From Phycisphaerales bacterium (GTDB lineage: Bacteria; Planctomycetota; Phycisphaerae; Phycisphaerales; UBA1924), in the NCBI GenBank assembly GCA_013360675.1, contig JABWBB010000002.1, forward strand, positions 1 to 64,000: DNA of 64,000 bases, in the 5' to 3' direction. A program made the translations under genes and the position numbers. The stretch's first letter is position 1. Each line of letters begins with the position of its first letter. The notes below the pieces were generated by a model, which was given only the letters and a program-made list of their open reading frames with translations, was not told the origin of the DNA and did not search any database. Positions 11,243 to 32,233 of the stretch are shown here, piece after piece.

Positions 11243-11250
11243 ACCCCCGC

Positions 11251-11282: not shown

Positions 11283-11347
11283 TTGCCCCGATCCCGCGTC
11301 AACCGGATCTGCCGTGTTTCCTCGGACGGGAAGCCTGCCCCGAGGGC

Positions 11348-11376: not shown

Positions 11377-11395
11377 TTGGTGGAGGTTTTCGACC

Positions 11396-11857: not shown

Positions 11858-11948
11858 GACGTCGGACATCGGAACTGGTTGCGGCCCCGATCGCCCGCGT
11901 TGGGCGCGGTGGTGTGCTGCGCGTCGACAGTGGACAAGGAGACAACAC

Positions 11949-12305
11949 ATGGCGAATCAAAGAAAGACTTTCGGCACGGTGCTCGGCCTGGGTATCACCG
12001 CACTCACGCTGTCGGGATGCGCGAGCGGACCCCGCACGGACGGCCCGGCGGGGCTCACCGATCCGGCCGCTGTGGTCGAGAGTCCGACGGCGACGCTGGT
12101 CGTGCACGGCATGAGCTGCCCGCTGTGCGCCAACAACGTGGACAAGCAGCTGCTTGAGGTCCCCGGTGTCTCGAGCGTCCACGTGGACATGGGCACGGGC
12201 GAGGCCAAGGTGGAGTTCCTCCCCAAGGCCCGGGTCACCAAGCAGCAACTGGCCGACGCGGTCTACAAGAGCGGCTTCACGCTGGCGGAGGTTCGCGTCC
12301 CATGA
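11949..12305 (+). CDS. HMA-domain lipoprotein
   Basis: 118 residues. A lipoprotein signal peptide (LTLSGC, C24) and short linker precede one heavy-metal-associated domain with the Cu(I) motif HGMSCPLC (C57, C60). It looks like a CopZ/Atx1-type metallochaperone moved to the membrane surface. It could capture copper outside the cytoplasm or pass it to envelope partners (inference). AAGGAG precedes the start, and its stop overlaps the next gene by four bases. Confidence 0.85.
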   Translation: MANQRKTFGTVLGLGITALTLSGCASGPRTDGPAGLTDPAAVVESPTATLVVHGMSCPLCANNVDKQLLEVPGVSSVHVDMGTGEAKVEFLPKARVTKQQLADAVYKSGFTLAEVRVP

Positions 12306-13171: not shown

Positions 13172-13189
13172 TGACACAGAGGAGACGCC

Positions 13190-13375
13190 ATTAGCTGCAA
13201 CTGCGGATGCCACGATGACAAGCCCCCGGCTACGGGATGGCGCAGGTATGTGCCGGTGATCGTGGGCGTGGGAGTGCTCGCCGCCATCATCGCGGGGGCC
13301 TTCCTGAGGAAGGACGGCACCCAGGACCGCGGTTCGACTCTGCAAGCTCCGAAGACGACGGCCCGAACGCCGTGA
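13190..13375 (+). CDS. Small Cys-rich single-pass membrane protein with ATT start
   Basis: An open frame of 61 codons from ATT at 13190 to TGA at 13373-13375. It reads (M)[16 protein letters not shown], then a membrane helix (about 20-38, [19 protein letters not shown]), then a polar tail. GAGGAG ends five bases before the ATT. An in-frame stop lies at 13172, and no ATG, GTG or TTG falls between it and the ATT; the first GTG downstream would remove the CxCxCH motif. The motif and the gene's place between the barrel and CopA argue that it is real and binds copper. ATT starts are rare, so the start is the uncertain part. Confidence 0.6.
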
Positions 13376-13400
13376 AAGAAGTCGACACACTAGGACCACG

Positions 13401-15878: not shown

Positions 15879-16353
15879 CCGGCAAGGACTCCGTCCGAGA
15901 ATGCGGTCGCCGGCCGAATTGCCGTCGCGGCAGTAGTCTTCTGGCGCATCCCACATGGAAAGTGCGATGGCCTGCGCTCCCGCGCTTGAACTCCGCGTGA
16001 CGAGCTGCGTAACGTGACATGGATTCCTCTCCATCACGCACGGCGTGTCGGAGTCGAATCCAGACGTTGCGGCGAAGGGGCACGATGCTCCGCCAGCCGC
16101 CAGCCCGCAGTTCTCGCGGGCGTCCCGACCTCGGAGGCACGGCTTCCGGGCGAACCCCAGGCACGGCTTGGACTGGGATCCACACGAAGCAGCACAACTG
16201 AGTCATTCGTGCCGTCGCGACCTGCGTCGCTGGCTCATCGCATGCTCGCGGTGTGTTGGCGCTCCAGCGTCGCGTCGGCGATCCCCGTCCGTACAAGATG
16301 CCGCGCGGCCGCTTCGACGTGATCGATCCGGCGCCGGCGAAAGGAAACACCAT
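15879..16353. other. Intergenic left edge of the island
   Basis: 475 bases without a convincing gene. Open frames here have no ribosome site and no recognisable protein. A short GCCG/CGGC stem near 15920-15934 could weakly end copA transcription. I could not find a direct repeat shared with the right side of the recombinase (28799-29163), so the attachment site is not defined. Confidence 0.5.
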
Positions 16354-17763
16354 ATGGATCCGAACATCCTTCTCAACAACCCCGACCTGCCCCCGAAGCT
16401 GCCGCAAGGAACGGTGGTGCAGCTCATCCCGATCGAGCGCATCAACCCCGCGCCGTACAACCCGCGCGTTGACCTGAAGCCCGGCGATCCGGGGTACGAC
16501 AAGCTTGTCAAGAGCATCGCCGAGTTCGGGCTCGTCGAGCCGCTGGTCTGGAACCAGCGCAGCGGCCACCTCGTCGGCGGCCATCAGCGGCTGAAGATCC
16601 TCCGTGACCGCGGTGATGAGATGGTGCCGGTCGTGGTCGTGGATCTTTCGTCGCAGAAGGAACGTGCCCTCAACCTCGCCCTCAACAAGATCCAGGGCGA
16701 CTGGGACGACACCAGGCTCGCGGAGGTTCTCCAGCACTTGATGCTGACGCCGCACCTTGATTGGGACCTCACCGGCTTCGAGTTCGATGAGGCCAAGGAC
16801 ATCATCGCCGAGGTGCTCGCCGACGCCGAGGAAGAAGCCGAAGAGGAGTTCGACGCGGAGCAGGAGCTGGCGAAGGCCGCGGCGCAGCCGGCCGTGACGC
16901 AGCCGGGCGACCTCATCCTGCTCGGCACCGATCCCGCCCGCCAGCACCGGCTGCTCTGCGGCGACAGCACCAACCCCGAGCACGTGCGTCGTCTGATGGA
17001 CGGCGAGCGGGCGGCGCTGTTTGCGACAGATCCGCCGTACCTCGTCGATTACGACGGCACCAACCACCCCGGGGCCAAGGCGGGCGTGAAAAACAAGGAC
17101 TGGTCGGGCACCTACGGCGTGACCTGGGACGACGCCGACGCCAACAGCGATCTTTACGACCGGTTCATCGCAACCGCAGTGGCGGAGGCGATCGCGCCGA
17201 ACGCGGCGTGGTACTGCTGGCACGCCTCACGCCGCCAGGCGATGCTCGAAGCGGCGTGGAACCGCCACGGCGCGTTTGTTCACTGCCAGATCATCTGGGC
17301 CAAGAACCGCCCGGTGCTCACGCGGACGTGGTACGCCTGGCAGCACGAGCCGTGCCTGATGGGCTGGATCCGCGGCAACCTGCCCCATCGCGCCGACGAA
17401 TCGCGGCTCTCCACGGTCTGGTCGATCGACACCATCCCCAACGGCGACCAGCGCCCCGACCACCCCACGCCCAAGCCGCTGGAGGTCTTCGAGATCCCGA
17501 TGCGGCAGCACACCAGGCCCGGCGAGGTCTGCTACGAGCCCTTCGCCGGCAGCGGCACGCAGATCATCGCGGCACAGCGGCTGCGGCGGCGCTGCTTTGC
17601 GATCGAGATCTCACCGGTCTACTGCGACCTCATCGTGCGGCGGTTCATCAAGCTGGCCGGCGAGGACGCCGTGGCGCCAGAGATCGCCGAGCGATACCGC
17701 GTTCGCGAGGTGCCTGCGCAGACGGTTGAGACGGCTGCTCAACCCACGGAGGGCGGGCAGTGA
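16354..17763 (+). CDS. ParB-like nuclease domain fused to DNA methyltransferase
   Basis: 469 residues. The N-terminal part (about 20-125) is ParB/sulfiredoxin-like (NPRVDLKPGD, FGLVEPLVWN, VGGHQRLKIL). An acidic linker follows, then a DNA methyltransferase with DPPY (D226-Y229) before FAGSGT (F397-T402). This motif order marks the beta class of N4-cytosine/N6-adenine enzymes. This fusion is common in phages and prophages, where it may protect phage DNA. Its position directly before terminase genes supports a phage origin. The start ATG at 16354 has AAAGGA upstream; a longer frame upstream has no such site. Confidence 0.85.
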   Translation: MDPNILLNNPDLPPKLPQGTVVQLIPIERINPAPYNPRVDLKPGDPGYDKLVKSIAEFGLVEPLVWNQRSGHLVGGHQRLKILRDRGDEMVPVVVVDLSSQKERALNLALNKIQGDWDDTRLAEVLQHLMLTPHLDWDLTGFEFDEAKDIIAEVLADAEEEAEEEFDAEQELAKAAAQPAVTQPGDLILLGTDPARQHRLLCGDSTNPEHVRRLMDGERAALFATDPPYLVDYDGTNHPGAKAGVKNKDWSGTYGVTWDDADANSDLYDRFIATAVAEAIAPNAAWYCWHASRRQAMLEAAWNRHGAFVHCQIIWAKNRPVLTRTWYAWQHEPCLMGWIRGNLPHRADESRLSTVWSIDTIPNGDQRPDHPTPKPLEVFEIPMRQHTRPGEVCYEPFAGSGTQIIAAQRLRRRCFAIEISPVYCDLIVRRFIKLAGEDAVAPEIAERYRVREVPAQTVETAAQPTEGGQ

Positions 17764-18602
17764 GCGAAAGCCACGACCCTTCGATTCCAGAGGAGCAGGG
17801 CGGCGGCGCTGACCAAGCGCCGCCGCCTCGCGCGCGGAGGCCTGTTCCCGAGCCCGAAGAGCCAGTCGAGTCCGACCACGCGACGGTGCTCGACATCCTC
17901 CGCGCGATCAAGTCCGGCCAGGTGAACCCGCGCAACGTCCGACCCGACGACCGGCGATTGTGCGTCGCTCATCTGGTGGGCGAAGGGTTGTCGGTCTCCG
18001 AGGTGGCGCAGGTGCTGCGGATCAGCGTGCGGACGGTGGCCCGCGACCGCCGGGCGATCAACGAGGAGAACGCGATCCAGCCCGATGCACGGCTGGCCGG
18101 CCTGTACGCGGGCCGGCTCGCCGCGGAGGCCGAGGCGACGATCGGCCGCATCCGCCGCGTCACCCGCGACAAGGACACGCCGCACGCGGTCAGGATCGAC
18201 GGCGAGTTCAAGTGCTACGACGTTCTCGACCGCTTCGTGCAGCGCCTGCAGTCCATGGGCTACCTGCCGACGGCCGCGCACCGGATTCAAGCCGATCTAA
18301 CCCACAACACCGGCGACCTGAGCAGCCTCGCGGAGCTGAAGGCCGAGCTCACCCGGCTCGAGTCCATCGACGCCGAGTGCCGTGTCATCGAGTCAGATGG
18401 AATCGGCGACGCCATGGATGACGCGTCTGAAGGCGACCTTCCTGCTCACGCCGGAGAGCATTCGGCACTGAGGGGCCCGGCCGGTGCATCCGTGCCTCGA
18501 GCCCAGACACGCGTTGAACGCGAGCGCCTGGAAGAGCAGGACATCAAGCGACGCATCGAAGAGAAGTGGAGGACCAAGAAGCCCGATGTCCAAGACCTCT
18601 GA
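17760..18602 (+). CDS. HTH protein, probable small terminase subunit
   Basis: 280 residues. A Pro/Glu-rich N-terminus leads to a helix-turn-helix (about 70-100: LVGEGLSVSEVAQVLRISVR) and then a helical region. The C-terminal tail is charged (RLEEQDIKRRIEEKWRTKK). The position right before the large terminase gene, the DNA-binding N-terminus and the helical remainder fit a small terminase subunit, but sequence similarity is not decisive. GTG start, overlapping the methyltransferase stop. Confidence 0.55.
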   Translation: MSESHDPSIPEEQGGGADQAPPPRARRPVPEPEEPVESDHATVLDILRAIKSGQVNPRNVRPDDRRLCVAHLVGEGLSVSEVAQVLRISVRTVARDRRAINEENAIQPDARLAGLYAGRLAAEAEATIGRIRRVTRDKDTPHAVRIDGEFKCYDVLDRFVQRLQSMGYLPTAAHRIQADLTHNTGDLSSLAELKAELTRLESIDAECRVIESDGIGDAMDDASEGDLPAHAGEHSALRGPAGASVPRAQTRVERERLEEQDIKRRIEEKWRTKKPDVQDL

Positions 18603-20190
18603 CACCCTCGTCGGCGTGCGGGCGGCGCTCTCGCTTCACCGTCGATCACTCGCGTCGCAGTCGCCTCGGGCGTTCGCCAAGGTGTACCTCGCCCGCCACT
18701 TCCGCTTGAAGCCCTCGCGCATGCACGAGGGGGTCTTCGAGCTGCTGGGTCAGGCCACCCAAGAACGCTCGAAGCGTCTAGCCGTCGCCGCGCCGCGCGG
18801 CCACGCCAAGAGCACCGTGGTCAGCCTGGCCTACGTGCTGTGGTCGGCGCTGTACCGCCACGAGCCGCTGATCCTGCTGGTCTCCGCCACACGCGAGCAG
18901 GCGGTGCAACTGCTCAAGAACGTCAAGGACGAGATCCAGGGCAACGAGCTGCTGCTGGAGGACTTCCCGGAGGTCTGCTCTCGCCCGGGCGAGGGCCGCA
19001 CGCCCAAGCCGTGGCGCGACAACAACATCCTCCTCCGCAATGGCGTCATGATCCGCGCCCTCGGCAGCGGCCAGGGCCTCCGCGGCGTGCGCCACGGCGC
19101 CAGCCGCCCCAGCCTGATCATCGGCGACGACCTCGAGAACCAGGAGCAGTGCGAGTCGCCCGAGCAGCGTGCCAAGATGCGCGACTGGTTCGAGAAGACG
19201 CTACTCAAGGCCGGCGACGGCCGCACCAACGTCGTGATCGTCGGCACCGTCCTGCACTACGACTCGCTCCTGGCCACCCTCGTCAACCCCGTCCGCGGCA
19301 AGGGTTCGGGCTGGGACAGCCGCGTATACCGCGCCGTCGAGTCCTTCAGCGAGCGCGCCGACCTCTGGGACCGCTGGGAGTCGATCCGCGTCGGCGAGGC
19401 CGAGCACGACGGCCGGCGCGGCCCGGTGGCGGCGGCGGCGTTCTTCGAGGCGAACAGACAGGAGATGCTCCGCGGCACGCGCGTGCTCTGGCCCGAGATG
19501 GAGGACTACCACCGGCTGATGCAGACCCGCGTCGACGAGGGTCGGCTGAGCTTCCAATCCGAGAAGCAGAACGAACCACTCGACCCCGAGCAGTGTCTCT
19601 TCTCGTCGGCGTCGTTCCGCTACTGGGATGATCAGAGCTCCGATCCTTCAGATCCCGCAGAGCTTCTCCGCAAGCTCGGCCCGCACACCCGCATCTATGG
19701 TGCCTGCGACCCGAGTCTGGGACGCCACGTCGGTCGCGGCGACTACACCGCGATCATCACCGTGGCCAAGGACGTCCGGGACGACTCGATCTACGTCCTC
19801 GACGCCGACATCGCCCGCCGCAAGCCCGAGCAGACCATCGAGCGGATCCTCGCGCTGGCGGGCGTGTACCGCTACGACGACTTCATCGTCGAGTCCAACC
19901 AGTTCCAGGAGATCATGGTCCGCCAGCTCGAGCACCTCGCCCGCACCCGCGGCGTGCGCCTCTACCCCCGCGCGGTGAGCAACACCGCCAACAAGCAGGC
20001 GCGGGTGGAGGGCCTCGAGCCGCTGATCAGCTCCGGCCGCCTCAAGTTCAGCCGCCGCCAATCCACGCTGCTGGACCAGCTCCGCCACTTTCCACTCGGC
20101 GCACACGACGACGGCCCCGACGCCCTCGAACTCGTCGTCACCCGCGCCGTCGAACGCCGAACAGCGAAGTTCGGGCGGTACGTGATGTGA
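18586..20190 (+). CDS. Phage terminase large subunit
   Basis: 534 residues. The N-terminal ATPase has a Walker A-like APRGHAKST (K75) and Walker B LIIGDDLEN (D181, D182), followed by a coupling segment (VIVGTVLHYDS). The C-terminal RNase-H-like nuclease shows CDPSLG (about 375), FIVESN and HDDGPDAL acidic residues. Such proteins drive DNA into phage heads and cut it. The start at 18586 overlaps the preceding gene by 17 bases. No portal, protease or capsid gene follows, so packaging here is either incomplete or depends on another phage. Confidence 0.9.
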   Translation: MSKTSDTLVGVRAALSLHRRSLASQSPRAFAKVYLARHFRLKPSRMHEGVFELLGQATQERSKRLAVAAPRGHAKSTVVSLAYVLWSALYRHEPLILLVSATREQAVQLLKNVKDEIQGNELLLEDFPEVCSRPGEGRTPKPWRDNNILLRNGVMIRALGSGQGLRGVRHGASRPSLIIGDDLENQEQCESPEQRAKMRDWFEKTLLKAGDGRTNVVIVGTVLHYDSLLATLVNPVRGKGSGWDSRVYRAVESFSERADLWDRWESIRVGEAEHDGRRGPVAAAAFFEANRQEMLRGTRVLWPEMEDYHRLMQTRVDEGRLSFQSEKQNEPLDPEQCLFSSASFRYWDDQSSDPSDPAELLRKLGPHTRIYGACDPSLGRHVGRGDYTAIITVAKDVRDDSIYVLDADIARRKPEQTIERILALAGVYRYDDFIVESNQFQEIMVRQLEHLARTRGVRLYPRAVSNTANKQARVEGLEPLISSGRLKFSRRQSTLLDQLRHFPLGAHDDGPDALELVVTRAVERRTAKFGRYVM

Positions 20191-20287: not shown

Positions 20288-20316
20288 TTGACCGCGTGAG
20301 GAAGGATCGGTAAGAT
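20288..20316 (+). promoter_or_regulatory. Promoter of the thymidine-modification operon
   Basis: TTGACC (20288-20293) and TAAGAT (20311-20316) are 17 bases apart. The first gene starts at 20342 with AAAGGA at 20331-20336. The -10 box lies inside a palindrome, which points to repression by the operon's own XRE protein. Confidence 0.7.
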
Positions 20317-20325
20317 ATTCTTACC
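20309..20325. promoter_or_regulatory. Palindromic operator, probable XRE site
   Basis: GGTAAGA (20309-20315) and TCTTACC (20319-20325) flank TAT. The arms are perfect and cover the -10 box. XRE repressors bind such short palindromes, and an XRE gene is second in the operon. Binding is inference. Confidence 0.7.
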
Positions 20326-20341: not shown

Positions 20342-20632
20342 ATGACCACACGCATCAAGTCCGATGAGGCCGTCGAGCGGATCGTACACGAACTCCTGGG
20401 CCGTGGAGGCCATCCGTCTTCCGTGCGAGACGGCGACAACCTCATGCAGGCGGGACTCACCAGCCAAGACGGCGTTGAGATGGCTTGCGACTTGGAGGCG
20501 CGATTGGGCATCATCGTCCCAGGCGACTTCAACCCACTCGTCCACGAGAGCGGAAGCCGCATGCGCACGCTCGGTGAACTCAAGGCGTGGGCCCGCGCCC
20601 AGCAGCCGACCACGGCGAAGAAGGGAGGCTGA
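20342..20632 (+). CDS. Acyl/peptidyl-carrier-protein-like protein
   Basis: 96 residues. The stretch DNLMQAGLTSQDGVEMACDL, followed by EARLGIIVPGD and a final helix (LGELKAWA), has the order of a carrier protein. S41 takes the place of the phosphopantetheinylated Ser in the usual GxDSLxxVEL. The Leu after Ser is Gln here, so the fit is imperfect. If modified, it would carry an acyl or aminoacyl group on a thioester. It is the first gene of the operon, directly behind the regulated promoter. The ACP-like call is moderate; the cargo is unknown. Confidence 0.55.
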   Translation: MTTRIKSDEAVERIVHELLGRGGHPSSVRDGDNLMQAGLTSQDGVEMACDLEARLGIIVPGDFNPLVHESGSRMRTLGELKAWARAQQPTTAKKGG

Positions 20633-20636: not shown

Positions 20637-20999
20637 ATGGACGAAGCAGTCGTACAACGTGAAGCTATCGCGCGGCGGCTCCGTGTCGCGCGTGAGCAGG
20701 CCGGCCTGAGTCAGGGACAGGTGGCCAAGCTCATGAGCTGGCACCGCCCTACCGTCAGCCAGATCGAGGCCGGTCAGCGACGGGTCAGCGCCGAAGAGCT
20801 CGCCTCGCTCGCCAAACACTACTGCGTCTCGGTGTCGTGGTTGGCGAAGACCGGAGAACCAGACCAGGACCAGGCCGACCCCCAGCTCGAGCTCGCGGCG
20901 AAGGAACTCGGGAGGCTCAAGCCCGACGACCTCCAACGCGTCATCAAGCTGCTCACCGCCCTTAAGAAGAGAGGGGGTGGCCATGGCGATCACCGTTGA
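20637..20999 (+). CDS. XRE-family repressor
   Basis: 120 residues. An N-terminal HTH_3 domain (about 8-65: RLRVAREQAGLSQGQVAKLM, then PTVSQIEAGQR) is followed by a helical tail (about 80-115). It starts five bases after the preceding stop and overlaps the ImmA gene. The XRE plus ImmA pair is a known switch: the protease cuts the repressor when a signal is present, as in ICEBs1. It probably binds the palindrome at 20309-20325 and represses the operon (inference). Confidence 0.9.
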   Translation: MDEAVVQREAIARRLRVAREQAGLSQGQVAKLMSWHRPTVSQIEAGQRRVSAEELASLAKHYCVSVSWLAKTGEPDQDQADPQLELAAKELGRLKPDDLQRVIKLLTALKKRGGGHGDHR

Positions 21000-21849
21000 T
21001 GTCGCCCGCCTGGCGCTCCGCAAGGCTATCGAGACCCGCAAGCGATTGGCGATCCCGATGGACCACGCCGTCTGCGCTGTGGACGTCGCGCAGCAACTCG
21101 ACCTCGAAGTGTGGTTCAAGCCGCTCGCGAGCCTGGCGGGGATGTACTCCGGGGCAGACGACCCGACGATCATCATCGGATCGGACCGCCCCGCCGGCTA
21201 CCAGGCATCCGTCTGCTCGCACGAGATCGGTCACCATGTGTTTGGGCATGGAACCAGAGTCGATGAGTATGTCGAGGGCGCCGGTCGCGCCAGATCTGAC
21301 GACCCAGACGAGTCCCTCGCGAACCTCTTCGGCAGTCACCTCCTCATGCCTCAGGCCGCGGTCGCTCGCGTGTTTGCGGCGCGTGGATGGTCGTTGAAAC
21401 ACCCGACGCCCGAGCAGGTCTACATCGCCGCCGGATACCTCGGCGTGGGTTACCAGGCACTCGTCCATCACCTTCGATGGACGATCCGCTCATTGGCCGG
21501 AAGTGTCTTCGACCATCTGCTCGGGTTCCAGGCCAAGGACATCCGTCAGTCGCTCCGCGGCCGTGCCACGCCGCAGAACCTCATCGTTGTGGACGTTCAC
21601 TGGCTGGACCGCCCCATTGATCTGGTGGCCGGAGACTTGGCGTTTCTGCCCACCGGTGCTCGGGTTGAAGGCATGGCCGTTCAGCTCATCGATGAAAGCG
21701 AGGACCGCGTTACGATCCGCGCCACACGGCGCGGCATCGCACGGGCCGAGGCCTCCCGGCCCGAGTGGAGTTCGTTCATTCGGGTCATGCCAAAGTGCTA
21801 TGACGGCGCCGCGGTCCATCGACACCTGGAGGATCCAGATGAGCCATGA
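20983..21849 (+). CDS. ImmA/IrrE-family metallopeptidase
   Basis: 288 residues. The metalloprotease core has HEIGHHVFGH (H80, E81, H84) and the downstream zinc-site helix with SLANLFGSHLLMP. A C-terminal extension of about 120 residues (from about 170) has no clear match. The family cleaves XRE-type repressors, and its XRE partner is the gene just upstream. The ATG at 20983 is chosen over the GTG at 20977 because GAGGGGG lies about six bases before it. It overlaps the next gene by 11 bases. Confidence 0.88.
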   Translation: MAITVDVARLALRKAIETRKRLAIPMDHAVCAVDVAQQLDLEVWFKPLASLAGMYSGADDPTIIIGSDRPAGYQASVCSHEIGHHVFGHGTRVDEYVEGAGRARSDDPDESLANLFGSHLLMPQAAVARVFAARGWSLKHPTPEQVYIAAGYLGVGYQALVHHLRWTIRSLAGSVFDHLLGFQAKDIRQSLRGRATPQNLIVVDVHWLDRPIDLVAGDLAFLPTGARVEGMAVQLIDESEDRVTIRATRRGIARAEASRPEWSSFIRVMPKCYDGAAVHRHLEDPDEP

Positions 21850-22684
21850 GAACTGTGTCGTACCCGGTGGCAACCTATCCGTGGTTTGGGCCCGTGCTTT
21901 CCTTCGCGTGTTCGATGCGACCGGGGGCGAGCTCGCGCACCCGCTGCTGCTGTCGGTCACAGAGTTCAACAACCTCGGGGAGCCGGTCGAGATCCCGGCT
22001 ATCAGAGACGCCCTCGACGAGACCATCGACGCCATCAACAAGGGTGGCAATAAACGCAAGCTCCAGGGCGTCTCCGCCACCGCCAGCACCATCTTCCCGC
22101 ACATGAGCTGGTCACCCAGGTCCACCCGCCCCGCCGCCGAGCTGTTCGACCACTACAGGGACAAGGTGTACCCGAGGCTGAAGAAGCTCTGTTCGCTCAA
22201 CACGCATGGGACGTACTTCCTCCGCATGATCGACTGCCCGAGTTGCCGCCCCGATGGCACCCGTGTCAACCAGCTCGGGTCGATCATCGAGTGGTGGAGG
22301 CGAGACCGGGCCCAGGGCAAACGCACGCGCCGGAGCGCCATGCAGGTGTCCATCTACGACCCACCCCGCGACCACACCGGTTCGGGCCAAGGCGGCTTCC
22401 CCTGCTTGCAGCAGGTCAGCTTCGGGTGGAGCGACCGTGGCCTCGTGCTCTCGGCGTACTACCCGACCGAGTGGATTCTCGACCGCGGGTACGGCAACTA
22501 CCTTGGCCTCTGCCAGCTCGGGGCGTTCATGGCGCATGAGATGGAGCTGCCTCTTGACCGGGTGAACATCTTCGTCGCGCTCCCCGAGCGTGGGAGCGTC
22601 TCCAAGTCGGCCACCCAGTCGCTCGCGGACCTGCTCCGTTGCTACGAGTGCAATCCCTTGCCCGCAGCGGAGGCAACTCCATGA
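21839..22684 (+). CDS. Divergent thymidylate-synthase-fold protein
   Basis: 281 residues. The C-terminal half aligns by spacing with ThyA: FPC (C189) matches the nucleophile C146 of E. coli, and N220 in GNYLGL lies exactly 31 residues on, matching N177. The phosphate-binding RSxD is replaced by PTEW, and the H207/Y209 pair is absent. It may therefore act on a different or non-phosphorylated pyrimidine, or be a regulatory paralogue. Starts at 21839 inside the ImmA gene and overlaps the kinase gene by ATGA. The fold call rests on these motifs and the neighbouring genes, so it is moderate. Confidence 0.55.
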   Translation: MSHENCVVPGGNLSVVWARAFLRVFDATGGELAHPLLLSVTEFNNLGEPVEIPAIRDALDETIDAINKGGNKRKLQGVSATASTIFPHMSWSPRSTRPAAELFDHYRDKVYPRLKKLCSLNTHGTYFLRMIDCPSCRPDGTRVNQLGSIIEWWRRDRAQGKRTRRSAMQVSIYDPPRDHTGSGQGGFPCLQQVSFGWSDRGLVLSAYYPTEWILDRGYGNYLGLCQLGAFMAHEMELPLDRVNIFVALPERGSVSKSATQSLADLLRCYECNPLPAAEATP

Positions 22685-23301
22685 CCGCCGGTCGACTCAT
22701 CGTTCTGGAAGGTCCGGACGGTGCCGGCAAGAGCACGACATCGGCGCGCTTGGCCGAGCGGCTGCGCTCGGCCGGGGAGTGCGTGTCCTGCTTTGCGCTC
22801 CCAGGCAACGAACCCGGCTCGCTCGGCAAACACGTGCACGGCCTCCACCACGAACCGACGCGTCACGGGGTCCGTGGCATCCACGCTACGGCTCTGCAAG
22901 TGCTGCACGCTGCCGCTCACATTGACTCGATCTACACCACTATCCGGCCAGCGCTGGAGCGGGGAGACATCGTGATCATGGACCGGTTCTGGTGGTCCAC
23001 CCTCGTCTACGGCCGCGTCACAGGAGTCGACGCCGTGACGCTCGGGTTGCTACAGCAACTCGCCGAGCACCACTGGAGATTCGCCGTGCCGTCGGCTGCC
23101 TACGTGCTCATGGGACAGTCGGATGGTCCGCCAAGCGCGCAGAGCCAGACGGATCAGCTCCGCCACGCCTACTCGGAGTTCGTTGCGGCGCTCACGGTCT
23201 CTTTCCCAGTCCGGGTACTGCACGCTAGCGGAGTGAACGACCACTATGCAGAGCAGATCCTGCAGGAGTTCGGGGCCCGTGGCCGACGTAGTCCCGCATG
23301 A
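22681..23301 (+). CDS. Thymidylate-kinase-like P-loop kinase
   Basis: 206 residues. P-loop LEGPDGAGKST (K17), DR motif IVIMDRFWWS (D101, R102) and overall length match dTMP kinases. The LID region (MGQSDGPPSAQSQTDQ) lacks the usual cluster of arginines, so catalysis or substrate may differ. In this operon it could phosphorylate a modified dTMP analogue made by the flanking ThyA-like proteins (inference). It is coupled to both neighbours by four-base overlaps. It is not the obvious housekeeping tmk. Confidence 0.75.
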   Translation: MTAGRLIVLEGPDGAGKSTTSARLAERLRSAGECVSCFALPGNEPGSLGKHVHGLHHEPTRHGVRGIHATALQVLHAAAHIDSIYTTIRPALERGDIVIMDRFWWSTLVYGRVTGVDAVTLGLLQQLAEHHWRFAVPSAAYVLMGQSDGPPSAQSQTDQLRHAYSEFVAALTVSFPVRVLHASGVNDHYAEQILQEFGARGRRSPA

Positions 23302-24374
23302 GTCCAGCGATGCCCCGAGCCACCTCACAACGCCGACCTCGCCGCAAAGGGCCTGCCGAACGTCCGTCGGCGCCCTATGTGTTCAGTCGACTGGCCCCGG
23401 TTCAAACTACTCCGGTCTACGACACGTACTGGCGGTTCGCGGTCGAGCGACAGGCCATTCTCCTCCGTCGCGCCCGCGGCGCTCCGGCCCCTTGGACGAA
23501 AGATCCAGTCCTCTTACGGCACAAGTTTACCAATGCGTACCGGGCGGCCGACCGCGTCAGTCAGTTCCTGATTGCGCATGTCATTTACCAGGGTTCCGCG
23601 CAAGCGGACGAGGTCGTGTTCCGAGTCCTGCTTTTCAAGCTGTTCAACAAGATTGAGACGTGGGAACTCTTGCAGCAACGACTTGGCGAACTGTCGTGGA
23701 GGCGATTCGAAGCCTCTCAGTATGCCGCCATTCTCTCTGGCGCCAGAGCGGCGGGCACGCGCATCTATTCACCGGCATACATCATGCCTTCCGCACGTTC
23801 GGCATTCGGATCTGCGGAGAAACACCGCAATCATCTCGCACTGATCGAGCACATGATGCGGGACCGCGTGACAACCAAGATCACGAAGGCGGCGAGCTTG
23901 GGCGGCGTGTACGCAACGCTTCGCTCGTATCCATCGCTTGGTCCATTCCTCGCATTCCAAATGGCGATCGACCTGAACTACTCGCCGATCATCGACTTTG
24001 ACGAGATGTCGTTCGTTGTGCCCGGCCCGGGGGCTCTGGACGGAATCGCCAAGTGCTTCAGCACGCGAGCCGGGCTCAACGAGGTCGACATCATCAAGCT
24101 CGTTGCCGACCGACAGGACGCCGAGTTCCAGAGTCGGGGTTTGACGTTCGAGCCTCTTGGCCATCGTCGGCTCCAACTGGTCGACTGCCAGAATCTCTTC
24201 TGCGAAGTAGATAAGTACGCGCGCGTGGCTCATCCAGAGGTCCAGGGCCTCAGCGGACGGACGCGCATCAAGCAGGTCTTTACGCCGAAGCGCGAGCTTC
24301 TAAAGCTCTGGTTCCCGCCGAAGTGGGGCGTCAACGAGGTCCTTTCCAAGCAGTTGCAGCAGGTGCCAAGATGA
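23298..24374 (+). CDS. HMUDK-helical/thymine-pyrophosphorylase-like protein
   Basis: 358 residues. The N-terminal half (about 40-140) shows VYDTYWRFAVERQAI, then PWTKDPVL, HKFTNAYRAADRVSQFLI and FRVLLFKLFNKIETWELL. I recognise this as the helical domain of the 5-hmdU DNA kinase / alpha-glutamyl- or putrescinyl-thymine pyrophosphorylase group. In phages making hypermodified thymine, such proteins act on 5-hydroxymethyluracil in DNA. The C-terminal half (about 190-355) has no separate domain that I can name. It lies between a TMK-like and a ThyA-like gene with ATGA overlaps on both sides. The family call is from memory of motifs; a profile search would settle it. Confidence 0.7.
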   Translation: MSPAMPRATSQRRPRRKGPAERPSAPYVFSRLAPVQTTPVYDTYWRFAVERQAILLRRARGAPAPWTKDPVLLRHKFTNAYRAADRVSQFLIAHVIYQGSAQADEVVFRVLLFKLFNKIETWELLQQRLGELSWRRFEASQYAAILSGARAAGTRIYSPAYIMPSARSAFGSAEKHRNHLALIEHMMRDRVTTKITKAASLGGVYATLRSYPSLGPFLAFQMAIDLNYSPIIDFDEMSFVVPGPGALDGIAKCFSTRAGLNEVDIIKLVADRQDAEFQSRGLTFEPLGHRRLQLVDCQNLFCEVDKYARVAHPEVQGLSGRTRIKQVFTPKRELLKLWFPPKWGVNEVLSKQLQQVPR

Positions 24375-25384
24375 ATGTCTTCAACGCCAACTCCGCTGAC
24401 TTGGCATGGCGACAGGCCGCCGATGCCATCGTCCGCCGCCACGGCGCTGACGAGGTGGAGTCTCGCAACGGTCGAGCTGTCGAACTCGTCCACGCATGCG
24501 TGACCGTCACCAACCCGCGCGCACGCTGGATCGCTTCCCGTTTGCCAGCGATGAACATCGCCTTGGCAATCGCGGAGGTGGCACAGATCGTGGCCGCTGG
24601 GGACGACGTGCCGTTCCTCGAGCATTGGTTCCCAAAGTACGGTGAGTACGTGGGGAGTCGTGACAAGGCCGCCGGCGCCTATGGCACACGGCTTCGGGTC
24701 AGGTGGGGTTTCGATCAGATCGCGCGAGCGGCCGAATCGCTGGCTGCTCGTGGCGAGAGCCGACAGGTCGTCCTCTCAATCTGGGACCCCCGGACGGACT
24801 TGCCAGAAGCCAATGGGTGCCCCAGGTCGGGTGACGTCCCCTGCAACGTCCTGAGCTGCCTCCGGCTGGTTGGCGGCCGGCTCCATTGGCTCCAGACCGT
24901 GCGGAGCAACGACCTATTCCGTGGCCTGCCGAACAACATCGTTCAATTCACCTGCCTTCAGGAGATCATCGCTGGCTGGATCGGAGCCGACGTCGGCCAG
25001 TACTCGCACACCATCAGCAGTTTGCATGCATATGTGAAGTCTCTCAGCGAGTTTCACATCGACCCAGAGGTGCCCGCAGTCGGCGAATCGTTCGACATCA
25101 GGCTTCCGCGCTCTGATGCAGAGGTCGCATGGACTAACTTGTACCGACTGGCGCAAGAGCTCGTCGCCCAAACGAACGACCGCCCGTCTCTGCCATCGTT
25201 TGCCACCGCGACCGACCTCGGACCCCTTCAGCCTATGTACTGGATACTCGTCGCCGAGAACGCCAGAAGACGCGGATGGCAAGCCCAGTCACAAGAGGCC
25301 GTGCAGATGTGCCATGACCGCACGCTAGTAACGATGTGGCACCGGTGGATCCGACGATTCGATGCACGGCATGCCCATTCGTGA
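24371..25384 (+). CDS. ThyA-family deoxypyrimidine (hydroxy)methylase
   Basis: 337 residues. All key thymidylate-synthase positions are present at exact E. coli spacing from the nucleophile: C158 (C146), R178-S-N-D181 (R166, D169), GLP, N189 (N177), H219 (H207) and Y221 (Y209). AGAYGTRLR and the Glu of IAEVA match the upstream TS elements. Asn at the N177 position predicts uracil rather than cytosine. It is either a thymidylate synthase or a dUMP hydroxymethylase, the first enzyme of phage thymine hypermodification. The operon favours the latter (inference). Last gene of the operon, ATGA-coupled. Confidence 0.8.
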   Translation: MNVFNANSADLAWRQAADAIVRRHGADEVESRNGRAVELVHACVTVTNPRARWIASRLPAMNIALAIAEVAQIVAAGDDVPFLEHWFPKYGEYVGSRDKAAGAYGTRLRVRWGFDQIARAAESLAARGESRQVVLSIWDPRTDLPEANGCPRSGDVPCNVLSCLRLVGGRLHWLQTVRSNDLFRGLPNNIVQFTCLQEIIAGWIGADVGQYSHTISSLHAYVKSLSEFHIDPEVPAVGESFDIRLPRSDAEVAWTNLYRLAQELVAQTNDRPSLPSFATATDLGPLQPMYWILVAENARRRGWQAQSQEAVQMCHDRTLVTMWHRWIRRFDARHAHS

Positions 25385-25578
25385 TGATTGGTGTTTCTCA
25401 ACCCGTGCGTCTCGCGCGAGTCTGGGCCGGGGTGGTCCGACTGGGTCTCGCTCCCTGAACCTGTTCGGCCCAGCGAAAAGATCGCCCGAGATATCAAAGC
25501 CAGTCGCGATCGTGGGCACATGGACCTTGGACCTCGGATCTGACGTTCCTGCTCCTTGGTCATGCGCACGAGACTATC

Positions 25579-26013
25579 TCATGGCTCTGACGTCTCAAAC
25601 AACCCTCGGGCGTATTTCCTGAACCGAGCCTTGGACCCTTTGGCCGCGATCTCGCGGATGATGGCGGCGTACAGCGTTGCCTCGGGGGTCTTGCCGCTCG
25701 GGCTCTTCCACAGGCCTCTGGCGGCCATCTGCTCGATCAACTCCTTCGCCGTCATCGGTTTGTTGGCATCGGCGATGATCTGTGCCGCGGCGTCCAGAGC
25801 ACCCGGGCGTTTGGGCTTGATTGCCTTGCTGGCCTTTGGTGGCTTCCCCGTGTTCTTGTTCGCACTCCTCGCGGCGCTCGGCTTGCCCTGCAATCGCTGC
25901 TGGATCTCGGCGATCGCGGCCTTCCGGGCCCTCTCGGTGCCCGCCACCGGTGCGGCTTTGGAGTTGGCGTCAACCTTCTTGCTCTTTCCACTTCCTGACT
26001 TCTTCCCAGTCAT
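25579..26013 (-). CDS. HARE-HTH domain protein
   Basis: 144 residues. A Lys/Ala/Ser-rich N-terminal tail (about 1-65) is followed by a HARE-type winged helix (about 70-140: ALDAAAQIIADANKPMTAKE, KTPEATLYAAIIREIAAKG, RFRKYARGLFE). HARE-HTH domains occur in RNA polymerase delta and in DNA-modification or restriction-linked proteins, and are thought to read DNA modification state. The ATG at 26013 is preferred; the upstream frame is not protein-like. It converges on the thymidine-modification operon. Confidence 0.8.
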   Translation of the reverse strand: MTGKKSGSGKSKKVDANSKAAPVAGTERARKAAIAEIQQRLQGKPSAARSANKNTGKPPKASKAIKPKRPGALDAAAQIIADANKPMTAKELIEQMAARGLWKSPSGKTPEATLYAAIIREIAAKGSKARFRKYARGLFETSEP

Positions 26014-26360
26014 AGGACTTCCTTTCCGTTGATGGCGATCGTGGCAGAGTGCCGCGGCAACGCGTGGCCGGCGACGGTGCCGACACGCAACGGATAGGAC
26101 CATCAACAGGCGAGGAAGGCAAGGTCCATCTGCAGCTACTCCGGCCCATTCACGCGATCGGGCTGGCGTCACCGACTCGCGATGCGTGATCCACTCGCGT
26201 CGTCCACCGCTCTCCGGATCTGCGGAACTCGGTTACCGAAGATTCGCGCGGATGTGCGCCGAAACCCCTTGCCATCTCCGAGATTACATGGCTCAGTGTG
26301 TGCGCCGAGCCGGGATTGGCGCAACTGACGCGAGGTCCCAGATGACGGCGGGAGTTGACT
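26014..26360. other. Divergent intergenic region
   Basis: 347 bases between the HARE-HTH gene (minus) and the DUF2924 gene (plus). It should hold both promoters, but I see no convincing -35/-10 pair, repeat or RNA gene. Confidence 0.4.
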
Positions 26361-27002
26361 GTGAAGCACGAACCGAAAGCCCAACATCCCGGACCTGCGC
26401 GGCTTGATAACGAACAACGCGAGGCGCGGGCCGGCGCCATTGATGTCGCGCGCCTTGCGGACCTTTCCATTGCGGATCTACGAGATCTGTGGCTGAAGCA
26501 CATGGGCCGGGCATCGCCGCCGTCGCAGAAGCGACTGTTGATCCGCGAGTTGGCGTGGCGGGTGCAGGAACGCGTCCACGGCGGCCTCGACGTCGAGACG
26601 CGGAGGCTCCTCTCCCGCGCCATGCGAGCCGCGACAGCGGACGACAAGCCTGTCGATGCGGCCGCAGACGCGAACGGCGTGCAGGTGCCAACCGCGAAGC
26701 GCCGGCCGCGGGGCGCTGCTTCGACAGCGCGGGCCTCGGGAAACGACCTCCCACCGGCCACGAAGCTCTCCCGTGTCTGGAAAGGAGTCCGGTATGAGGT
26801 CTACGTCCTTGACGGCGGCCGCTTCCGCTTGGGGGGACGCGACGAGACCTACGCCAGCCTCAGCGAGATCGCCCGCGAGATCACCGGCACGCGCTGGTCC
26901 GGCCCGCGGTTCTTTGGGCTGACGACGCGTGAGGGTTCCGGCGACGAAGACCCGCGCTCGAGCAACAGGCAACGCCCACGCCGCAACGGAGGTGACTCAT
27001 GA
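26361..27002 (+). CDS. DUF2924 protein, recombinase partner
   Basis: 213 residues. N-terminal helical part (ADLRDLWLKHMGR, LLIRELAWRVQE), Ala-rich linker, then the DUF2924 core: RVWKGVRYEVYVLDGG, then YASLSEIAREITGTRWSGPR. DUF2924 genes are found directly before large serine recombinases, as here. Their function is unknown; a recombination accessory is plausible. A GTG start at 26361 is chosen because GGGAG lies seven bases upstream; TTG at 26355 is too close to it. Overlaps the recombinase by ATGA. Confidence 0.8.
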   Translation: MKHEPKAQHPGPARLDNEQREARAGAIDVARLADLSIADLRDLWLKHMGRASPPSQKRLLIRELAWRVQERVHGGLDVETRRLLSRAMRAATADDKPVDAAADANGVQVPTAKRRPRGAASTARASGNDLPPATKLSRVWKGVRYEVYVLDGGRFRLGGRDETYASLSEIAREITGTRWSGPRFFGLTTREGSGDEDPRSSNRQRPRRNGGDS

Positions 27003-28798
27003 CCACGCCGATCGTTCGCTGCGCCGTCTACACGCGCAAGTCGAGCGAGGAGGGCCTCGACATGGCCTTCAACTCGCTCGACGCTCAACGCGAGGCCGGT
27101 CTTGACTACATCAAGAGCCAGAAGCACCAGGGATGGACCGCCATCACTACCGCCTACGACGACGGCGGCTACTCCGGCGGCTCGACCGACCGGCCCGGCC
27201 TCCAGCGACTCCTCGACGACATCCGCAAGGGCCGCGTCGACGTCGTCGTGGTCTACAAGGTCGACCGCCTCTCGCGATCACTGGCCGACTTCGCCCGGCT
27301 CATGCAGACCTTCGACGAGCACAACGTCTCGTTTGTCTCCGTGACCCAGCAGTTCAACACCACGACGTCGATGGGCCGGCTGACGCTGAACATGCTCCTC
27401 TCTTTCGCCCAGTTCGAGCGCGAGGTTGCGGGCGAGCGCATCCGCGACAAGATCGCCGCGACCAAGCGCAAGGGCGTCTGGGTCTGTGGCCAGCCTCCAG
27501 TGGGCTACCGGCTGCCGTGCGAAGGTGATGCCGACTTCGTGCCGGGCGACCGCACGCTCCGGGTGATCGAACCGGAGGCCGAGTTGGTTCGCGCAATCTT
27601 CAATGGCTACCTCGAACTCGGCTCGCTGGTCGACCTCGCCGCCAGGCTCAACGCCGAGGGCCATACCACCAAGAGCTGGACTAGCAGTCGCGGCAAGATC
27701 CACGGCGGACGCCCCCTCACCGCCGCGTTCCTCTACCGAGTCCTGACCAACCCGGTCTACATCGGCAAGATCGCTCACACCCGCGGCCGCAACAACAAGA
27801 GCGTCTCCAAGCAGACTGAGGTCCACCAGGGGCACCACCAACCGATCATCGACCAAGCGACTTGGGACAGCGTCCATGCCCGGATGGGCACGATCGAACG
27901 CGAGTCGCGCCACAAGTGGACGCACACCCACCTGCTCAAGGGCAAGATCCGCACCTCCGAGGGGCACGCCATGAGCCCGGGGTCGGTGCAGCGCCCGGTG
28001 TCGAAGCGCGACGATTGCCGCCGCGTTCGCGGCGACACGGCTCGACGCATCGTCCGCTACTACGTCAGCCAGAAGGCCGTGAAGCAGGGCTTCATGACCT
28101 GTCCGATCAAGACGATCAACGCGGCGCACATCGACGACCTGATCCGCGGCTTGGTGCTCGATCACCTCAAGAACCACCATCACGCCAACCTGCGCGATCA
28201 GCAACCCGAGACACGAGACCGCTGGATCCGCGAGGTTGTTCACCGAGTGGTGGTTGCTACGGACCGCATCACCGTCGAACTGATCCACGAGCGGATCGCC
28301 GCATGCGTCGATGCGGCACGCGACCAGGGAACCAGCCGCGCGGCGAGCGCCTGCGACAGCACCAAAGCGGTACCGGCATGCCCCTTCACGCCCGAGATCG
28401 AAGATCGCGGCCAGCACATGACGCTCACGCTACGCATCCAGATCAAGCGCCACGACGGCCGCCGCGTGCTCCTCAGCCCCGACGGCCACGACCTGCTGAC
28501 CACCATCACGCCCGACGGATGCCCGGTCACCCGCGACCACCTCGTCCGCGCGGTCGGCCTCGCCTTCGCGTGGCACCGCGAGTTGACACGGGCGGACCGC
28601 ACAATCGAGTCGGTCGCGGTGCGCGCCGGCGTGACCGCCGGACGGGTTCACTCGATCCTCACACTGACGCAGCTCAGCCCGACGATCCTTCGATCGGTCC
28701 TCACCGGCTCTCTCGGATCGAGCGTCACCCTGCTCGATCTGCTCCGAGCAGCCCAGCGCTTGGACTGGTCGCGGCAGGCCCAGGCGCTCGGCGCGTGA
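26999..28798 (+). CDS. Large serine recombinase
   Basis: 599 residues. The resolvase catalytic domain (about 5-150) has YTRKSS (nucleophile probably S15), VDVVVVYKVDRLSRS and EREVAGERIRDKI. A recombinase domain (about 180-290: LVDLAARLNAEG, FLYRVLTNPVYIG) and a long C-terminal region follow. The usual zinc-ribbon cysteines (CxxC pair) are not obvious. Such enzymes integrate and excise mobile elements without needing long homology. It is the likely integrase of this island and is translationally coupled to the DUF2924 gene. Confidence 0.92.
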   Translation: MTTPIVRCAVYTRKSSEEGLDMAFNSLDAQREAGLDYIKSQKHQGWTAITTAYDDGGYSGGSTDRPGLQRLLDDIRKGRVDVVVVYKVDRLSRSLADFARLMQTFDEHNVSFVSVTQQFNTTTSMGRLTLNMLLSFAQFEREVAGERIRDKIAATKRKGVWVCGQPPVGYRLPCEGDADFVPGDRTLRVIEPEAELVRAIFNGYLELGSLVDLAARLNAEGHTTKSWTSSRGKIHGGRPLTAAFLYRVLTNPVYIGKIAHTRGRNNKSVSKQTEVHQGHHQPIIDQATWDSVHARMGTIERESRHKWTHTHLLKGKIRTSEGHAMSPGSVQRPVSKRDDCRRVRGDTARRIVRYYVSQKAVKQGFMTCPIKTINAAHIDDLIRGLVLDHLKNHHHANLRDQQPETRDRWIREVVHRVVVATDRITVELIHERIAACVDAARDQGTSRAASACDSTKAVPACPFTPEIEDRGQHMTLTLRIQIKRHDGRRVLLSPDGHDLLTTITPDGCPVTRDHLVRAVGLAFAWHRELTRADRTIESVAVRAGVTAGRVHSILTLTQLSPTILRSVLTGSLGSSVTLLDLLRAAQRLDWSRQAQALGA

Positions 28799-30008: not shown

Positions 30009-32141
30009 TCACTCGTCGAACAACCCGCCCGGTGCGGGCTTGGCCTTCACACCGATGCGGGGCTTATTCGCGCCCTTGTTGGCGATGCCCCTGGTGGTGG
30101 GGGTCTCGCCGGGCTTCTTGACCGCCGCTGACTTTCGAGTGGTTTCTTCATCGCGAGCGGGCGGCTTCGCCCCTGTCACCGGTGGTGGAGGAGTGGGTGC
30201 GTCCCGCGCGATGATGATCACGCCGTCATCGTCGGCCTCGGCGTTCTTCACCGAACGCCCCTCGTCATCCAGCACCAGGTCCGCCACCGCGGTCTTTTTC
30301 TTCGATTGCGCCAGCAGCGCCTCGTACAACCGTTTGGGATCGGTCCCATTGACCTCGTGCACGGCCTTGGCGATCTCGCCGATGTACCGCTCAAAGACGT
30401 CGCGTCGCTCCGACTCACGCCGCATCTTCGCGCGCTTGTTCAGATACGACCCGAGTTTCCGCCCGCACTCCATCAGCGCCAGGCGCATCTCCTTGCGGAT
30501 CTCGTCATAGTCGGCGATCGCCTCCTTGCTCTCGCTGGTGAAGGGCACCCACACGCTGGCCATGTGGATCATGATCACCAGCGGGCCGATGGGCGCGCCC
30601 CCGCGCGGGTGCTGCAACTCATAGTTCCGCCAGTTCGTGTCCACCACCGCCTTGAACGACGAGCACGCCGCCTGCTGATACAGCAGCGGCACGCGGTTGG
30701 CAAAGCGGATCACCCGCGCCGTCTCATCGCCGGGCAGATCCCCGCCAAAGGCGATCGCCGCCTCGATCTGGAATGGCCTGCCCCGATACACCGCAGCCTC
30801 GCGCGACGACGCTGCGTAAAACTCAGCCCGCACCCCCTTGAGCATCCCCGCCAGCAACTGCCGCACGCCAATGGGCGCGAGGCAATCCACCGGCGGCGGG
30901 GGCAGTTTCGCTTCCTGCAACTCGCGGAACAACTTTTCCGCGATCGCGTGATCGACCTCGCCCACCTTCGTGCGGCTCGTCAGTTTCACCTTCGAGCAGA
31001 GCGACGAAGCCGCCGCCGCCGATACGCGGCAGAACTTCTCCTGCAGAAACTGATATAGCGTCGTGCTCGCCCGCTCGACCTCGGCCTCCTTGAGCATCTG
31101 CAGCAGCATGCCTAACTCAACCCCGCGAGGGTGCGGCTGGATCTCCTGCGTCTCGGGCGGGAGTTCCGTCACCCCGCGCGGATAATCCACCACCCCGCCC
31201 GTCTCCTGCGTCCGCACCGGCTCGTCGGGCGACGCGGCCTTGCCAACCCGCGACGCAAACTCGAGCACGTCTTCATCATCCCCCGCGTCGCGCGTGGGGG
31301 GAACAAAGACAATGCGTGCGTGCGGATTGGCGATCGCAGTCAGTTCGAGAAACTCGTCCACCGAGCCTCGCCCGCGCTGGTATCGACCCTCCAACTCGAG
31401 GCTCACGCTCGTGCCGGTGGGATAGTGCTCGGGGTCAAGGAACTCACCTTTGGCCGCGAGCGCCCGCGTCCCCGCGCTGAGCGTGCCCAGCCGCCGCGGC
31501 GGAAAGTCGTCGGTCTCCGTGTCCACCGTGACCTCGGCGCGGTTGGTCTTGGTGTTCATCGCCAATTCAAGATGGTGCGCCTCGGCCTTCTTCGAGGGCT
31601 TGGTGTGGATCACCATGGGACGCCCGGTGGTGAGCAGGCCGTACATCCCCGCGGCCGAGATACCGATGCCCTGCTGCCCGCGCGACATCTTGAGCCGGTG
31701 GAACTTGCTTCCGTACAGCAGCCGTCCGAAGACATTCTCGACCTGCTTGCGCACGATGCCCGGGCCGTTGTCGACCACCGTCACGCGATAACGCGACGAC
31801 GCGGGTGGGCGCTTCTTCGCGCCGCCCTCGCCACCCTTGTCCGCCTTGTCGGGCTTGGCCGATGCGTCTTCGAGGTCCTCAATCACCACCGTGATGTCGG
31901 GCAGGATCCCCGCTTCCTCGCACGCGTCGAGCGAGTTGTCCACGGCCTCCTTCACCGTCGTCAGCAGCGCCTTGCGCGGGTTGTCAAACCCCAGCAGATG
32001 CCGGTTCTTCGCGAAGAACTCGCTGACCGAGATATCCCGCTGCTTGCCCGCCATCGTCTCGGCGGTCGCCCGCGAGCGGGTCGCCCGCTTGCCCCCGGTC
32101 TCCTGCGGGGCGGTCTCTTCCTCAACCAACGCTTGGGTCAT
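30009..32141 (-). CDS. top6B: DNA topoisomerase VI subunit B
   Basis: 710 residues. GHKL ATPase domain: NPRKALLTTVKEAVDNSLDA (N-box), VTVVDNGPGI, GQQGIGISAAGMYG. The H2TH and transducer regions follow (KVGEVDHAIAEKLF; LLYQQAACSSFKAV; WVPFTSESKEAIADY). Top6B drives the ATP-dependent gate of a type IIB topoisomerase together with the Spo11-like Top6A. No top6A is present in this window. The C-terminal 90 residues are a low-complexity Lys/Pro tail. The ATG at 32141 has GGGAGGG upstream and is preferred to the frame opening at 32177. Confidence 0.92.
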   Translation of the reverse strand: MTQALVEEETAPQETGGKRATRSRATAETMAGKQRDISVSEFFAKNRHLLGFDNPRKALLTTVKEAVDNSLDACEEAGILPDITVVIEDLEDASAKPDKADKGGEGGAKKRPPASSRYRVTVVDNGPGIVRKQVENVFGRLLYGSKFHRLKMSRGQQGIGISAAGMYGLLTTGRPMVIHTKPSKKAEAHHLELAMNTKTNRAEVTVDTETDDFPPRRLGTLSAGTRALAAKGEFLDPEHYPTGTSVSLELEGRYQRGRGSVDEFLELTAIANPHARIVFVPPTRDAGDDEDVLEFASRVGKAASPDEPVRTQETGGVVDYPRGVTELPPETQEIQPHPRGVELGMLLQMLKEAEVERASTTLYQFLQEKFCRVSAAAASSLCSKVKLTSRTKVGEVDHAIAEKLFRELQEAKLPPPPVDCLAPIGVRQLLAGMLKGVRAEFYAASSREAAVYRGRPFQIEAAIAFGGDLPGDETARVIRFANRVPLLYQQAACSSFKAVVDTNWRNYELQHPRGGAPIGPLVIMIHMASVWVPFTSESKEAIADYDEIRKEMRLALMECGRKLGSYLNKRAKMRRESERRDVFERYIGEIAKAVHEVNGTDPKRLYEALLAQSKKKTAVADLVLDDEGRSVKNAEADDDGVIIIARDAPTPPPPVTGAKPPARDEETTRKSAAVKKPGETPTTRGIANKGANKPRIGVKAKPAPGGLFDE

Positions 32142-32233
32142 GCGTCGCCCTCCCTGGCGATTGTGGCGTGCCATCACCCGACAGGGTACGCGCCCCGCCC
32201 TCGTCCTTGCAACGCGGGATAGCCCGACATGCG

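Follow-up and report, generated by a model that had tools for sequence, protein, structure and literature searches.

A candidate inducible, mobile nucleotide-modification operon of anti-phage type around an HMUDK_hel gene of a Phycisphaerales bacterium

What is a protein of the HMUDK-helical (HMUDK_hel) family, known from phage thymidine hypermodification, doing in a bacterial genome? The question is raised by the window, a 64,000-nucleotide stretch of contig JABWBB010000002.1 from a Phycisphaerales bacterium, in which the original prediction placed such a protein outside any recognisable phage and regarded it as the piece that turns a nucleotide-metabolism operon into a base-modification candidate. 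The analysis presented here bears out the family assignment and makes it rather probable that the gene is part of an inducible, mobile nucleotide-modification operon of anti-phage type.

The HMUDK_hel protein and its fold

The open reading frame at 23298-24374 encodes 358 amino acids and contains the segments PWTKDPVL, HKFTNAYRAADRVSQFLI and LFKLFNKIETWELL, from which family membership had been proposed. Its residues 38-316 match positions 1-280 of the 281 in the Pfam profile PF18723 (HMUDK_hel), a significant match over the full profile (E=2e-109, 365.7 bits against a cut-off of 25), and the protein also matches phrog_2396 (E=3.8e-55). The three segments lie at about residues 65-125, and their columns are invariant or near-invariant in an alignment of 68 sequences. 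The gene is single-copy in its own 2.92 Mb genome, a search of 14 control genomes returned no match, and the nearest relatives among the best 80 of 536 come from Phycisphaeraceae and Phycisphaerales (loci L004-L006).

An AlphaFold2 model built from 68 homologues (pLDDT 92.5) has the all-helical fold common to viral PF18723 members, with Foldseek matches to those of SP10, phiRSL1, a Nodularia phage and phiW-14 at E-values of 1e-8 to 5e-15. The best match in a viral structure library was the SP10 5-hmdU DNA kinase F8WQ30 (TM 0.76 on the query, rmsd 2.6), and amino-acid:DNA transferases followed the phage HMUDK_hel proteins as weaker matches. When the model was compared with solved structures by VIA-align, the phage 5-phosphomethyl-dU glycinyltransferase PUGT ranked first (Z 11.3, rmsd 3.9 over 227 residues), the queuosine-monophosphate glycosylase QNG1/DUF2419 second (Z 10.6, rmsd 6.0) and HhH DNA glycosylases third (Z 7-9), scores to be read in the knowledge that mostly helical models can reach middling Z values by chance. 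Foldseek E-values for the same three groups were weak (0.07 at best), and a search of the PDB with the sequence profile gave chance-level matches only. The likeness to PUGT is nevertheless credible, since PUGT tops the list and the family match is also seen at the level of sequence. The substrate of PUGT is DNA and that of QNG1 a free nucleotide, which makes the fold compatible with either kind, and a fold match is in any case no proof of an activity like that of PUGT or the glycosylases.

A seven-gene operon and its operator

The HMUDK_hel gene is the sixth of seven genes on the forward strand, which are listed here with their control elements and two neighbouring mobility genes:

20288..20316 (+): sigma-70-type promoter TTGACC-N17-TAAGAT, with the -10 element inside the operator palindrome
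20309..20325 (no strand): operator palindrome GGTAAGATATTCTTACC, the predicted site of the HTH repressor, upstream of the carrier-protein gene
20342..20632 (+): small acyl/peptidyl carrier protein-like (ACP) gene, PF00550, with the phosphopantetheine attachment Ser in GLTSQDG
20637..20999 (+): HTH_31/HTH_3 repressor, PF13560 E=1.1e-15, PADLOC capH E=3e-11, start at about 20637
20977..21849 (+): ImmA/IrrE-type M78 metallopeptidase, PF06114 E=1.5e-10, PADLOC capP E=8.5e-10, start at 20977 (GTG) or 20983 (ATG)
21839..22684 (+): TS1, divergent thymidylate-synthase-fold enzyme, 281 aa, start at 21839
22681..23301 (+): thymidylate-kinase-family P-loop protein, PF02223 E=4.7e-16, PADLOC PDC-M51B E=2.4e-13, P-loop GPDGAGKST
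23298..24374 (+): HMUDK_hel (PF18723) protein, ATG start
24371..25384 (+): TS2, thymidylate synthase/pyrimidine hydroxymethylase-like, PF00303 E=5.6e-16, phrog_5131 E=2.2e-43, substrate residues present
26355..27002 (+): DUF2924 protein, PF11149 E=1.7e-35, which goes with the recombinase as a mobility gene and lies outside the cassette core
26999..28798 (+): large serine recombinase, PF00239 E=3.3e-40, PF07508, phrog_95 E=1.9e-91, probable mobility gene of the island

Four bases separate the ACP stop from the HTH start and the subsequent genes overlap by 4 to about 23 bases, so the operon looks translationally coupled. The true starts of the HTH and TS1 genes were set by homology and ribosome-binding-site position, and the longer frames that a mechanical call yields, of 211 aa from 20364 and 393 aa from 21503, were rejected. 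No effector gene is recognisable in the operon as it stands in the window, so that any killing or signalling would have to come from its product or from an unlinked gene. A hydrophobic forward-strand frame at 25556-26032 was considered as an effector and set aside as antisense to a frame at 25579-26019 on the minus strand; the latter, convergent with the operon, encodes a small basic protein whose C-terminal region is winged-helix/HARE-HTH-like (assigned by eye).

The operon was compared across 86 loci, which comprise the best 80 of 536 relatives from one genome scan, three plasmid copies, the loci of two relatives and the window. A GTAAGA-N3-TCTTAC-type palindrome, counted with the same half-sites in either order, is found near the ACP and HTH genes in 47 of the 57 loci that have the HTH gene, against 6 background matches in 970 kb from other parts of these loci, and the exact GGTAAGATATTCTTACC site is unique in its own genome. 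The TAAGAT within the palindrome is the -10 box of the operon's sole promoter-like site (0.8 per region are expected by chance), and the same layout is found in other loci: a TTGACA-like -35 element (at least 5 of 6 bases) lies 16-18 nt upstream of TAAGAT in 20 of 36, compared with 1.1% at random positions. Near the head of the operon the HTH gene adjoins that of the IrrE-like protease, whose HEIGH zinc motif is intact and whose HExxH is kept in 97% of the family. CapH/CapP-type regulators control immune operons in response to ssDNA, and both CapP and PprI cleave their repressors when ssDNA-bound (PMC13373217, PMC10904395). By analogy with these systems, damage-induced derepression is the likely mode of control.

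The carrier protein is easily missed because it is short, and it scores 0.1 bit below the PF00550 cut-off of 20.8 (20.7 bits, E=5e-4). Its homologues lie just 5' of the HTH gene in 59 of the 86 loci, and the putative phosphopantetheine-attachment serine is invariant in all 59, the sole invariant column. A gene for AcpS is near the cassette in 22 loci, and the host of the window encodes its own AcpS elsewhere. The reading of the operon as a base-modification candidate was reasonable, given the hydroxymethylase-like TS and the thymidylate-kinase-like P-loop gene next to HMUDK_hel and the fusion of the two latter proteins in other loci, and it had overlooked three components: the operator, the carrier protein and the pair of repressor and protease. 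These three favour an inducible cassette for defence over an isolated modification gene from a phage.

Both TS-family proteins resemble the CMP 5-hydroxymethylase MilA. TS2, which has the catalytic Cys, RSND, Asn and H-x-Y motifs and is 28% identical to gp058 of phage M6, has MilA as its closest solved relative (E=3.4e-16). The TS1 model (pLDDT 92.9) has the fold shared by TS, MilA and the flavin-dependent dCMP hydroxylase (Z 15-17; 16.4 for MilA). Cys189 and Asn220 are invariant in TS1, whereas a profile alignment to MilA indicates that the equivalents of R166 (phosphate) and of H207 and Y209 (ribose) are replaced; TS1 therefore departs from a canonical thymidylate synthase in keeping the Cys and Asn and losing the dUMP phosphate and ribose ligands. 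At the pyrimidine-recognition site the alignments place an Asn in both proteins opposite the Asp of MilA, so that uracil rather than cytosine is predicted, which suggests a uracil substrate for TS2. TS1 was absent from the 50,697 phage records searched and so marks the bacterial form of the cassette.

Kinase and HMUDK_hel form a single fused protein in 27 of the 86 loci, and in 19 the kinase has a gene of its own nearby; the fusions make it very likely that the adjacent kinase and HMUDK_hel proteins of the window form one split enzyme. The cassette kinase profile does not recognise gp054, the separate P-loop kinase of M6, so the kinase step may differ from that of the phage.

Homology to TS and thymidylate kinase, along with the lack of any other PF00303 gene in the genome, might point to ordinary pyrimidine housekeeping, in which the operon would provide a second route for synthesis and phosphorylation of dTMP. 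We consider this very improbable: the genome encodes ThyX and a full-score Tmk elsewhere, the cassette proteins score under the NCBIfam equivalog cut-offs, TS1 has lost its dUMP ligands and is rare (1 of 195 genomes of the phylum), and the operon appears to be repressed. With ThyX, Tmk and AcpS all supplied by the host, a role in dTMP supply was rejected.

Distribution, mobility and neighbouring genes

By record titles, the loci span about a dozen phyla, among them Planctomycetota, Verrucomicrobiota, Pseudomonadota, deltaproteobacterial lineages, Myxococcota, Acidobacteriota, Chloroflexota, Cyanobacteriota and Bacteroidota. The recurring order is ACP-HTH-IrrE-TS1-(kinase)HMUDK_hel, then TS2, MazG or radical SAM, and within 5 kb of HMUDK_hel the genes most often present are TS1 (66 of 86 loci), HTH (65), IrrE (64) and ACP (59), followed by MazG (36), TS2 (36), a DCD-like gene (28) and radical SAM (12). 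The family is patchy, PF18723 being found in 3 of 61 relatives and TS1 as sparsely as noted above, as expected for cargo that moves horizontally. Some copies are on conjugative plasmids, and 6 of 8 plasmid records with a TS1-like gene also contain HMUDK_hel. A large serine recombinase with DUF2924 is near the cassette in the window and in L004, L005 and L028, and in L004 and L005 the DUF2924 gene also adjoins the cassette.

The company of these genes is of a kind seen in conflict systems. A ThsB-type TIR gene and an Nmad2 gene are each found beside HMUDK_hel relatives in 19 of the 86 loci, and genes for SIR2, ABC-three-component (ABC-3C) proteins and CBASS-annotated phospholipases adjoin plasmid copies. 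In a sample of flanks, 110 genes matched 182 PADLOC models, with Type I specificity subunits in the lead, while 93 control genes matched 1; these figures count models, of which one protein may match many, and all control flanks were taken from a single housekeeping locus, so this enrichment is no more than supportive of a role in defence.

Several other arrangements were observed. In a second architecture that is without HTH, IrrE, ACP and TS1 genes, the TIR and Nmad2 genes stand beside HMUDK_hel, often together with a DCD-like gene (L015, L027, L051, L060, L067, L077, L083 and L086), and on a Parabacteroides distasonis plasmid (L110) TIR, hypothetical, HMUDK_hel and radical SAM genes are clustered. 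The DCD-like genes encode a DCD/dUTPase-like domain and, after it, a hydrophobic stretch that is likely transmembrane (for example L059:10571-11443 and L039:3492-4340), and the product could possibly be a nucleotide-sensing membrane effector.

The carrier protein, AcpS, radical SAM and MazG pyrophosphatase are also typical biosynthetic parts, and the nearest solved structure to TS2, MilA, belongs to the mildiomycin pathway. The operon might therefore be a small natural-product cluster, in which an hmU-type nucleoside, comparable to mildiomycin or polyoxin, would be built on or loaded by the carrier and be exported or act as an antibiotic. This seems quite improbable, for no transporter, NRPS or PKS was seen recurring beside the cassette, and a conflict system better accounts for the control by IrrE/HTH, the recombinases, the conjugative plasmids and the TIR/SIR2 neighbours.

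The surroundings of the operon in the window are mixed. Just upstream are a ParB-N/DNA-methylase fusion gene (16045-17763), a helix-turn-helix gene and a terminase-large-like gene (18484-20190, phrog_38 E=6.5e-106), a region (16045-20190) that could be a phage satellite or remnant; a terminase-like gene is also beside the cassette and recombinase of L004 (L004:10655-11779). The claim that the gene lies outside a recognisable phage thus holds in that no head or tail genes were seen among the frames scanned, and is qualified by the terminase-like and methylase neighbours upstream and the recombinase downstream. No phage DNA polymerase or transferase gene was recognised among the genes scanned; the contig belongs to a bacterial genome that is 97% complete, and chromosomal genes, such as that for TopoVI-B, adjoin the cassette. 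Further upstream, at 2852-15878, are metal-resistance-type genes (multicopper oxidase, outer membrane efflux protein, HMA-domain P-type ATPase), which suggest a composite genomic island. On the other side, a gene for the B subunit of topoisomerase VI, an enzyme that is usually archaeal, lies at 30009-32177 on the minus strand and is conserved in the bacterial family and order (32 of 37 genomes). An empty-site comparison found this flank in those 32 genomes, but with no synteny and no adjacent tRNA-Ser/Met, and it defined no island borders.

These phage-like features bear on a further reading, that the host's own DNA, or that of the mobile element, has its thymine hypermodified by the operon as protection against nucleases, in the manner of phages M6, ViI and SP10. 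PF18723, TS and kinase genes are those of phage hypermodification (PMC9476957, PMC6449724), the HMUDK_hel fold matches viral 5-hmdU DNA kinase domains, and the operon is preceded by a DNA methylase gene and a terminase-like gene. A repressed, damage-type promoter is ill-suited to constant self-protection, however; genes like those of M6 for aGPT-Pplase2, the PLP enzyme and DNA polymerase did not turn up, TS1 is without a match in the phage records searched, and close HMUDK_hel relatives were found in only 19 of 2.9 million viral contigs. On balance we regard self-modification as unlikely, and better founded than a natural-product role.

Proposed function and known systems

Taken together, the genomic company of the cassette, its regulators and a validated system of similar domains lead us to prefer anti-phage defence, with somewhat better than even confidence. 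In this mechanism, the HTH protein would bind the palindrome over the -10 box and keep the operon repressed until infection, through DNA damage or ssDNA, activated the IrrE-type protease to cleave it, as in CapH/CapP and PprI/DdrO. TS2 would then produce 5-hydroxymethyl-dUMP (or hmUMP), and the thymidylate-kinase-like protein and HMUDK_hel, acting as one split enzyme, would phosphorylate the 5-hydroxymethyl group (or the hydroxymethyl nucleotide), with the HhH-glycosylase/PUGT-like fold of HMUDK_hel handling the modified pyrimidine. TS1 and the holo-carrier protein may add a further group that varies with the accessory genes (MazG or MazG_C, radical SAM, a second TS, DCD-like). The resulting hypermodified thymine nucleotide might poison phage DNA synthesis or act as a signal, or the outcome might be modification of a DNA base.

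We know of no carrier-protein step in the hypermodification of DNA bases or nucleotides. TS1 has kept its base ligands and lost those for phosphate and ribose, and the attachment serine is the sole invariant residue of the carrier; from these two observations one can tentatively sketch a carrier-dependent modification of pyrimidines, a proposal we hold as doubtful. TS1 would make an activated 5-methylene uracil (or use a 5-phosphomethyl uracil), which would be captured by, or receive a group from, the phosphopantetheine arm of the carrier, and HMUDK_hel and the kinase would prepare or transfer the product.

The hypermodified thymine of phages seems to have an inducible, mobile bacterial counterpart, whose regulatory site is conserved across the dozen or so phyla in which it occurs. 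If this counterpart is defensive, it places modified-nucleotide synthesis under a damage-sensing immune switch, and its invariant carrier protein would point to an undescribed pyrimidine chemistry. The operator and seven-gene unit can be tested as a single cloned construct.

The combination of PF18723, TS and kinase is itself already known in phages and was recently also reported in defence (PMC13092281). In the sources read we found no description of a carrier protein leading the operon, of its invariant phosphopantetheine serine, of the cross-phylum operator and promoter, or of the altered active site of TS1, and priority is uncertain. The report in question, on DefensePredictor, describes a system combining domains of TS, dNMP kinase and 5hmdU kinase, which was validated against phage in E. 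coli MG1655, and its text states no mechanism (PMC13092281). The same three domain names describe the cassette, and the figure-legend abbreviations in that text include neither a carrier protein nor an IrrE protease (PMC13092281). A blastn comparison of two cassette homologues with E. coli DNA gave no match, so the link between the two systems is one of domain names only. A further parallel is offered by the nucleotide-centric conflict systems that Burroughs et al. described in 2015 (cited in PMC13092281), in that relatives of the cassette bear MazG_C, Nmad2, TIR and DCD-like genes with HMUDK_hel.

Phage M6 DNA contains hmdU-derived bases (PMC6449724, PMC9476957), and the thymidine hypermodification cassettes of M6, ViI, SP10 and phiW-14 likewise cluster a PF18723 protein with a TS-family hydroxymethylase homologue and a P-loop kinase (PMC9476957). 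Compared with these, the bacterial cassette adds ACP, HTH, IrrE and TS1, the operon of the window is without the Nmad5, rSAM, PLP enzyme and aGPT-Pplase2 genes of M6, its HMUDK_hel protein is only about 27% identical to M6 gp055, and its kinase is of the thymidylate-kinase type, unlike gp054. With CapH/CapP and PprI/DdrO it shares an adjacent HTH repressor and IrrE-type protease and the corresponding PADLOC matches, a likeness at the level of sequence; here, however, the putative regulators would serve a nucleotide-modification cassette that has a conserved operator of its own.
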